Shown: one piece after another, positions 83-379 of the stretch
Layout of the letters: every line of letters begins with the position of its first letter
Position numbering within the stretch: the stretch's first letter is position 1
From: Candidatus Avelusimicrobium gallicola
GTDB lineage: Bacteria > Elusimicrobiota > Elusimicrobia > Elusimicrobiales > UBA9959
Assembly: GCA_020722185.1 (NCBI GenBank)
Contig: DYLH01000014.1
Coordinates: 1 to 35,568 of the forward strand
Direction: 5' to 3'
DNA: 35,568 nt
Position numbers and translations under genes: made by a program
Notes under the pieces: generated by a model
Told to the model about the DNA's origin: nothing
Seen by the model: only the letters and a program-made list of their open reading frames with translations
Database searches by the model: none

Positions 83-105
83 CTATACCTTAGAAGTTTA
101 TCAAT

Positions 106-179
106 GGCCTGTTCGTCTAGCGGCCCAGGACGCCGCCCTCTCAAGGCGGAGATCACGGGTTCAAATCCCGTACAGGCCG
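106..179 (+). tRNA. tRNA-Glu, anticodon CTC
   Basis: A full cloverleaf can be read by hand. The acceptor stem is GGCCTGT/ACAGGCC (7 bp). The D arm runs GTC...GAC. The anticodon stem is CCGCC/GGCGG with loop CTCTCAA, giving anticodon CTC, which reads GAG. The T arm is ACGGG-TTCAAAT-CCCGT. The discriminator base is G179, as usual for tRNA-Glu, and no CCA is encoded. Its 3' 18 nt (162-179) are repeated exactly at 313-330 without the 5' part of the tRNA, so only this copy is a complete gene. A GAG-reading tRNA-Glu implies a separate UUC isoacceptor elsewhere. Glu-tRNA is also the type of substrate used by the GatCAB genes downstream. Confidence 0.95.
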
Positions 180-211
180 TTTTTGTTTTTGTATAGTAAG
201 GAAGCCAACTG
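162..211 (+). repeat. 50-bp direct repeat, copy 1 (tRNA 3' end plus downstream DNA)
   Basis: This copy holds the last 18 nt of the tRNA-Glu gene, the T-rich spacer ttttt-g-ttttt and the first part of the GGAAGCC hairpin. It matches 313-362 base for base at an offset of 151. It reads like the left attachment-type repeat of a small insertion at a tRNA 3' end, but no integrase is present between the copies. Confidence 0.95.
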
Positions 212-221
212 CTTGGCTTCC
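200..221 (+). terminator. Terminator-like hairpin after the tRNA (first, altered copy)
   Basis: GGAAGCCAA-CTGC-TTGGCTTCC is a perfect 9-bp stem with a 4-nt loop. T-runs lie before it rather than after it, so it may be a weak terminator or a processing signal. Its left arm belongs to the direct repeat and its right arm to the inserted DNA. Compare the shorter version at 351-369, which does have a T-tract. Confidence 0.5.
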
Positions 222-223
222 GT

Positions 224-321
224 CGGGATTTGAAAGGCGCAGCGTTGCTGAGCTCTGCGAAGCCGCGAGCCGGGGTCGCGCAAAATTTCACTTATGGAAA
301 TTTATGTGTGACCAAATCCCG
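224..321. mobile_element. GC-rich palindromic element inserted behind the tRNA, four-way-junction fold
   Basis: The ends are inverted repeats CGGGATTTG (224-232) and CAAATCCCG (313-321). Three hairpins lie inside: CGCAG/CTGCG (238-259), CGCGA/TCGCG (264-280) and AAATTTC/GAAATTT with loop ACTTATG (283-303). Closed by the outer stem they make a four-way junction. Bases 224-281 are about 40/58 G or C by hand count, in a clearly AT-rich neighbourhood. The left end is the reverse complement of the T arm of the intact tRNA. I see no convincing ORF: the two ORF-track entries here run through the tRNA or its duplicated tail. Calling it a mobile element is inference from the flanking direct repeats. 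A structured RNA or a REP-like element is also possible. Together with the repeats and hairpins it fills most of the 305-base gap between the tRNA and ychF. Confidence 0.55.
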
Positions 322-362
322 TACAGGCCGTTTTTGTTTTTGTATAGTAAGGAAGCCAACTG
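313..362 (+). repeat. 50-bp direct repeat, copy 2 (tRNA 3' fragment plus downstream DNA)
   Basis: Exact copy of 162-211. It holds an orphan 18-nt 3' tRNA-Glu fragment with no D arm, anticodon arm or 5' acceptor strand, then the same T-rich spacer and start of hairpin. It is what an attR site would look like after an insertion or partial duplication at the tRNA end. Confidence 0.95.
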
Positions 363-379
363 GGCTTCCTTATCTTTTT
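351..379 (+). terminator. Intrinsic terminator of the tRNA-Glu unit
   Basis: GGAAGCC-AACTG-GGCTTCC forms a 7-bp stem with a 5-nt loop, followed by TTATCTTTTT. This is probably the original tRNA terminator, now displaced 151 bp downstream by the duplication. Confidence 0.7.

Follow-up and report, generated by a model that had tools for sequence, protein, structure and literature searches.

A tRNA-linked element in Elusimicrobiota and Patescibacteria with arms that copy the 3' half of the host tRNA gene

The locus behind tRNA-Glu

The window analyzed here, a stretch of 35,568 nucleotides (nt) from Candidatus Avelusimicrobium gallicola, is contig C4 of a 1.6-Mb draft genome in 60 contigs. Its sole tRNA gene is tRNA-Glu(CTC), and the structured segment at 224-321 lies directly behind it (Table 1), followed by a gene from position 485 that is read from its sequence as ychF. 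The T-loop positions T54, C56, and A57 of the tRNA fall at 160, 162, and 163. A 50-nt direct repeat surrounds the segment. Its first copy runs from C56 through the tRNA 3' half (here called X) and the trailer into a hairpin termed H1, of which it includes the left arm and part of the loop. The insert between the repeats measures ~100 bp, which leaves no room for a gene and thus for neither an integrase nor cargo. Behind H1 follows X', in which CGGGATTTGAA is the exact reverse complement of TTCAAATCCCG (160-170) in tRNA-Glu. The hairpin further downstream is the H1 of the second unit, with a shortened loop, and may act as a terminator.

Table 1 Features of the tRNA-Glu locus in the window.
Feature	Position	Strand	Basis or remark
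tRNA-Glu (anticodon CTC), host gene	105..180	+	ARAGORN; Rfam RF00005, 63.3 bits
Direct repeat, first copy, 50 nt	162..211	+	100% identical to 313-362
H1, perfect 9-bp hairpin GGAAGCCAA-CTGC-TTGGCTTCC	200..221	+	Family-typical CTGC loop
X', reverse-complement copy of tRNA positions 54-64	224..234	+	Exact 11-nt complement of own tRNA
Core arm P1	236..271	+	Covariation in the alignment of 64 homologues
Core arm P2, GGTCGCGC/GTGTGACC, then AT-only stem	274..313	+	Both partners change in 10/16 pairs; 94.9% of cells paired
Direct repeat, second copy (X from C56, trailer, H1 left arm)	313..362	+	Identical to 162-211
Hairpin GGAAGCC-AACTG-GGCTTCC, T-rich stretch after	351..369	+	Inspection of the sequence

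The segment at 224-321 (98 nt) folds at -41.8 kcal/mol. None of 200 dinucleotide-shuffled versions folds as well, their mean being -28.3 with an sd of 3.3 (z -4.09); the structure that the initial annotation had seen in these letters is real, though not in every detail of its outline. As it had also proposed, the ends pair, CGGGATTTG (224-232) with CAAATCCCG (313-321), forming a helix termed P0 that is closed by the first 9 nt of the second repeat copy. Its remark that the closing stem is complementary to the T-arm proved to describe the key feature of the locus. The four-way junction with three inner hairpins, however, gives way to a three-way junction of P0, P1, and P2 in the consensus of 64 homologues: the hairpin at 283-303 is conserved, and the AT-only third arm is real (about 282-304) as the outer part of P2, whereas those drawn at 238-259 and 264-280 are not conserved pairs. 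P1 is instead made up of GGC/GCC, GCG/CGC, and GCT/AGC with G-A-type internal loops. The consensus-like fold of the window sequence alone reaches -38.2, against -41.8 for the minimum free energy structure, and the choice of the three-way fold rests on the homologues because the minimum free energy of the single sequence favors another fold. Both H1 and the 50-nt repeat were absent from the earlier outline and its coordinates. A covariance model built from 64 copies, R1, matches the same genome twice more, near tRNA-Asp (6.4e-9, R1 E-values being rough) and, weakly, near tRNA-Gly.

A family of copies behind tRNA genes

The loci were found by patterns and models derived from the family itself, in genomes that are mostly metagenome drafts. 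In a BLAST search over 59 genomes of the taxonomic family, most genera proved to have copies, and nearly every good one lies behind a tRNA gene. R1 matches 123 of 341 Elusimicrobiota genomes with 1-11 copies each. It also matches each of the 20 Patescibacteria genomes searched, which are 0.4-1.1 Mb in size and contain 1-32 copies, up to 32 in 0.7 Mb; the latter proportion is not a frequency, because these genomes were chosen for holding a pattern hit. In a pattern scan of GTDB genomes, genuine copies among the matches listed belong to Elusimicrobiota and Patescibacteria, including Kaiser-, Adler-, Nomura-, Taylor-, and Zambryskibacteria and other Paceibacterota, while those listed from Actinobacteria, Sphingomonas, and others were rejected as chance matches in GC-rich DNA. 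A viral origin was likewise rejected, as none of 28 pattern matches in viral contigs has P1 and X' context, and no copy was found in phage records. A single 33-nt match on a Streptomyces plasmid was judged to be chance.

A tRNA or tmRNA gene on the same strand ends <600 nt upstream in 125 of 147 copies (median distance 53 nt), and several of the remaining copies lie at contig ends. The hosts are tRNA genes of about 20 isotypes and tmRNA, less often other terminated genes. In the Patescibacteria genome G357, all 26 copies listed follow a tRNA, and at least 27 of its 48 tRNA genes are covered within a limit of 450 nt. Copies also sit behind tmRNA (L065, L372), the copied part being its tRNA-like 3' half, and others have no adjacent tRNA (L107 5700-6200, L151, L181, L141); at the first of these, the inverted arm copies the end of what looks like a protein-coding gene, on the far side of a terminator with a CTGC loop.

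The arrangement of a copy is tRNA 3' half (X), hairpin, X', core (P1/P2), and second X. X' ends one base before the core and is the exact reverse complement of the 3' end of the locus's own tRNA. Among the 123 copies with a tRNA, X' matches that tRNA over at least 6 nt in 108 (mostly 11-12 nt), compared with 30 of 123 for a randomly chosen other tRNA. In 72 copies X' has its edge exactly at T54, and in about 20 the edge is near nt 70. A second X can be recognized over at least 6 nt in 76 of the 123, against 15 for another tRNA, and begins at C56 or R57 in 61 copies; where recognizable, it starts 2-3 nt inside the edge of X', or about two bases inside in the few readable cases of the nt-70 class. 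Since X' also complements T-loop bases 54-60, it is not copied from the 5' strands of the tRNA. In several Patescibacteria copies it extends through the discriminator, the encoded CCA, and the trailer, so that the terminator sits at the center of a large palindrome. Of 36 tRNAs in sampled segments of G357 and G345, 27 are followed within 300 nt by an exact 11-nt complement of nt 54-64, while none was found behind 22 core-less tRNAs of G020.

Several variants of this arrangement were observed. In one Patescibacteria class (L089, L105, L132, L152, L169), the copied X starts not at T54 but ~3 nt short of the tRNA end, which forms a second precise edge. At L047, both direct repeats contain a terminator hairpin, and the stem sequences have diverged while both still pair. 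A different GC-rich repeat (..GGCGGGTCCGCC..GGCGGA) lies exactly between X' and core in two genera (L035, L036, L037, L053, L225). A second subtype (L059, L069, L070, L071) shares the P1/P2 core and has its own left end, GTGAGG..GAGC-hairpin-GCGT..GCAAGG; it is nested inside a tRNA-linked copy in L074 and inverted beside a copy in L219, and several of its members are not near a tRNA. Finally, an inverted tRNA tail is followed by two hairpins of quite different sequence behind tRNA-Arg(TCT) (L360), tRNA-Leu(TAG) (L363), and tRNA-Gly(GCC) (L368), so the family may be wider than R1.

RNAalifold and direct pair counts concur on three helices in the 64 copies, namely P0, in which X' pairs with the second X, P1, and P2; 28 of 38 pairs change on both sides and 89% of cells are paired. 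The covariation score is 0.496, compared with 0.157 for shuffled alignments and at most 0.12 when the pairing is slid. The stems are kept by compensation, with 517 cells changed on both sides versus 163 in shuffles, and the selection for structure suggested in the initial annotation, or else copying of it, is strongly supported by this covariation. P2 alone displays 59 distinct 5' arms among the 64 copies. G-T pairs make up 1.3% of paired cells in P1 and P2, against 3.4% in the acceptor and T stems of the tRNAs at these loci (Fisher p 7e-6 on cells that are not independent, two fixed or semi-fixed P2 G-T pairs excluded). The core arms hence look copied or DNA-selected rather than drifting via wobble pairs, and the rarity of G-T pairs in the variable stems fits arms copied at the DNA level. 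The G-T pair at the base of P2 is invariant, and the structured strand is therefore the tRNA-sense strand; this pair could point to RNA. H1 is a perfect hairpin of at least 6 bp in 106 of 122 copies, compared with 4 of 147 shuffles. Its arms come in 90 different sequences, and its loop is CTGC in 48 copies. Kissing of this loop with the P1 loop AGCA was considered and dropped, as the loops do not covary between clades.

By inspection, H1 appears to separate an acceptor complement on its 5' side from the T-stem complement in many Elusimicrobiota copies, giving a tRNA topology in which H1 would occupy the place of the D and anticodon arms and the core that of the T-loop. The tRNA-like outline read earlier into the segment is thus right in many copies, in a different way than it was put, and is not clearly seen in the window copy.

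Probable gain and loss, and a proposed mode of spread

Orthologous sites can be filled in one genome of a genus and empty in another. At tRNA-Glu-ychF, a copy is present in G000, G020, and G021, whereas the site is empty in G008 and G022, both of them congeners of genomes that have the copy. Two Patescibacteria with several tRNA clusters in common have copies at the same tRNAs, where the core identity between them is 51%, compared with 52% at non-orthologous loci and 86% for the tRNAs; within each of the two genomes it is 62% and 57%. P1 and P2 variants occur in new combinations, which we read from the sequences as recombination, and the whole block forms tandem units at L046 and L035. On the sequence data, core turnover, filled and empty sites, and tandem units argue for gain, loss, and spread.

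Our preferred reading, with a probability of roughly one half, is that the copies belong to a small element, non-autonomous and able to spread among tRNA genes, which copies its target by fold-back synthesis. Mobility and the enzyme behind it are what we infer beside the observed order of parts, precise edges, own-tRNA copy, covariation, and polymorphism. The core would move from tRNA gene to tRNA gene within a genome. On arrival, the tRNA 3' end would be opened by a cut at the T-loop, and the 3' half would be copied by fold-back synthesis, starting from the terminator hairpin and ending at the cut, to give X-hairpin-X'. The folded single-stranded core would then link the end of this palindrome to a second copy of X. 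The intermediate may be a closed dumbbell, in which the hairpin caps one end of the X/X' duplex and the core caps the opposite end; a single recombination of such a dumbbell into the chromosomal X would yield exactly X-hairpin-X'-core-X. If the two X copies then recombined with each other, the unit would be multiplied in tandem or excised cleanly, and host polymerases and recombinases may suffice as the enzymes. A further step, which we put forward only tentatively, is that this is a self-spreading DNA element without fixed ends, in which a folded single-stranded adaptor caps the cut tRNA 3' half, folds back to copy the target, and thereby rewrites its own arms with each move. If true, one core could colonize most tRNA genes of a minimal genome, in Elusimicrobiota and Patescibacteria alike.

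The main rival, which we regard as unlikely, is a cis-acting RNA in which X' of read-through transcripts pairs with the 3' half of its own tRNA or with the second X, the core controlling tRNA maturation as a switch or as a tRNA-like site for processing or protein binding. The strong covariation and the invariant G-U pair on the tRNA-sense strand speak for such a role, as does the tRNA topology of many Elusimicrobiota copies. The tRNA genes of G357 are nearly saturated, and near saturation in some Patescibacteria could reflect a function. X' is also better kept than the second X, which is missing from many copies that retain X', and a mere insertion footprint would not predict this retention. 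However, a terminator lies between tRNA and core in many copies, the core turns over between orthologous tRNAs and is present or absent within one genus, and some copies stand behind non-tRNA genes.

A T-loop site and a directly duplicated tRNA 3' half are typical of tyrosine-recombinase integration, and the copies could accordingly be remnants or minimal forms of tyrosine-recombinase integrative elements in tRNA T-loops that left the duplication behind. This is improbable: the element holds neither cargo nor integrase, the inverted X' and H1 are not part of attL/attR, and one core serves about 20 isotypes with locus-specific arms. We consider it more doubtful still that a retro-element is at work, where a reverse transcriptase, with the tRNA 3' end or the terminator hairpin as its primer, would make X' as cDNA of the tRNA tail and insert it. 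X' does copy the tRNA 3' strand, and the acceptor and T-stem complements resemble a tRNA primer-binding site, yet X' can hold trailer bases that are not part of a mature tRNA, and RVT_1 was found in only 6 of the 20 genomes tested and in none of the Patescibacteria G357, G345, G343, and G341, which harbor 18-32 copies. The Y1 transposase PF01797 is absent from G345 (29 copies), G343 (20 copies), G045, G078, G080, and G155, and the distribution over genomes rules out either enzyme as a universal mover. Recognition by a transposase or processing by an RNase, which the initial annotation gave as examples, are candidate roles of the structure; Y1 transposases do not follow the element's distribution. 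Chance structure or an assembly artefact, for which a draft assembly in 60 contigs and a perfect repeat might be cited, has a negligible probability, and both are refuted for the family by independent copies in >100 genomes with covariation.

Significance and comparison with known systems

To our knowledge, known small repeats have ends that are element-borne, whereas the ends of this element copy the target with nucleotide precision at one tRNA position. Target-copied ends would point either to a mode of DNA insertion or amplification that has not been described before or to a tRNA-linked RNA that is likewise undescribed. The element reaches over a third of the sampled Elusimicrobiota and, in one Patescibacteria genome of 0.7 Mb, at least 27 of the 48 tRNA genes; it is thereby a major feature of genomes thought to be streamlined, and its occurrence in two distant phyla makes inter-phylum transfer testable. 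In Rfam 15, a gathering-threshold scan of the window matched tRNA only, and the element was assigned to no family when 15 loci were scanned by E-value; among the open-licence papers listed in literature searches, no title or abstract mentions a tRNA-linked repeat of this kind.

Several known systems share individual traits with the element. Like REP, BIME, REPIN, and other MITEs moved by RAYT Y1 enzymes, it is short, non-coding, hairpin-forming, and multicopy, without a gene of its own. Unlike them, it lies behind tRNA genes in tRNA orientation, has arms that differ per locus and follow the host tRNA in place of fixed element-borne ends, and occurs in high copy in several genomes that lack Y1_Tnp. 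The T-loop junction and the duplicated tRNA 3' half are found here as in tyrosine-recombinase elements and satellites at tRNA genes, from which it differs in being about 100-250 bp and gene-free, in the inverted tRNA 3' half, and in having its edges at T54 and C56/R57 across about 20 isotypes. The folded strand, with its paired arms and a shape that is conserved while the sequence varies, recalls integron attC, a resemblance only, as there is no cassette array and the arms are tRNA copies. The position behind terminator hairpins is that of group IIC introns, although the element is far too small and has no Rfam intron match. With tRNA-like structures and retroelement primer-binding sites it shares the complement of the tRNA 3' end and, in many copies, the acceptor and T-stem topology; it differs in being a DNA-level copy that may include the trailer, in the P1/P2 core that replaces the T-loop, and in the lack of a reverse transcriptase in the high-copy genomes. 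We hold the family to be new in kind because its arms are copied from the target.
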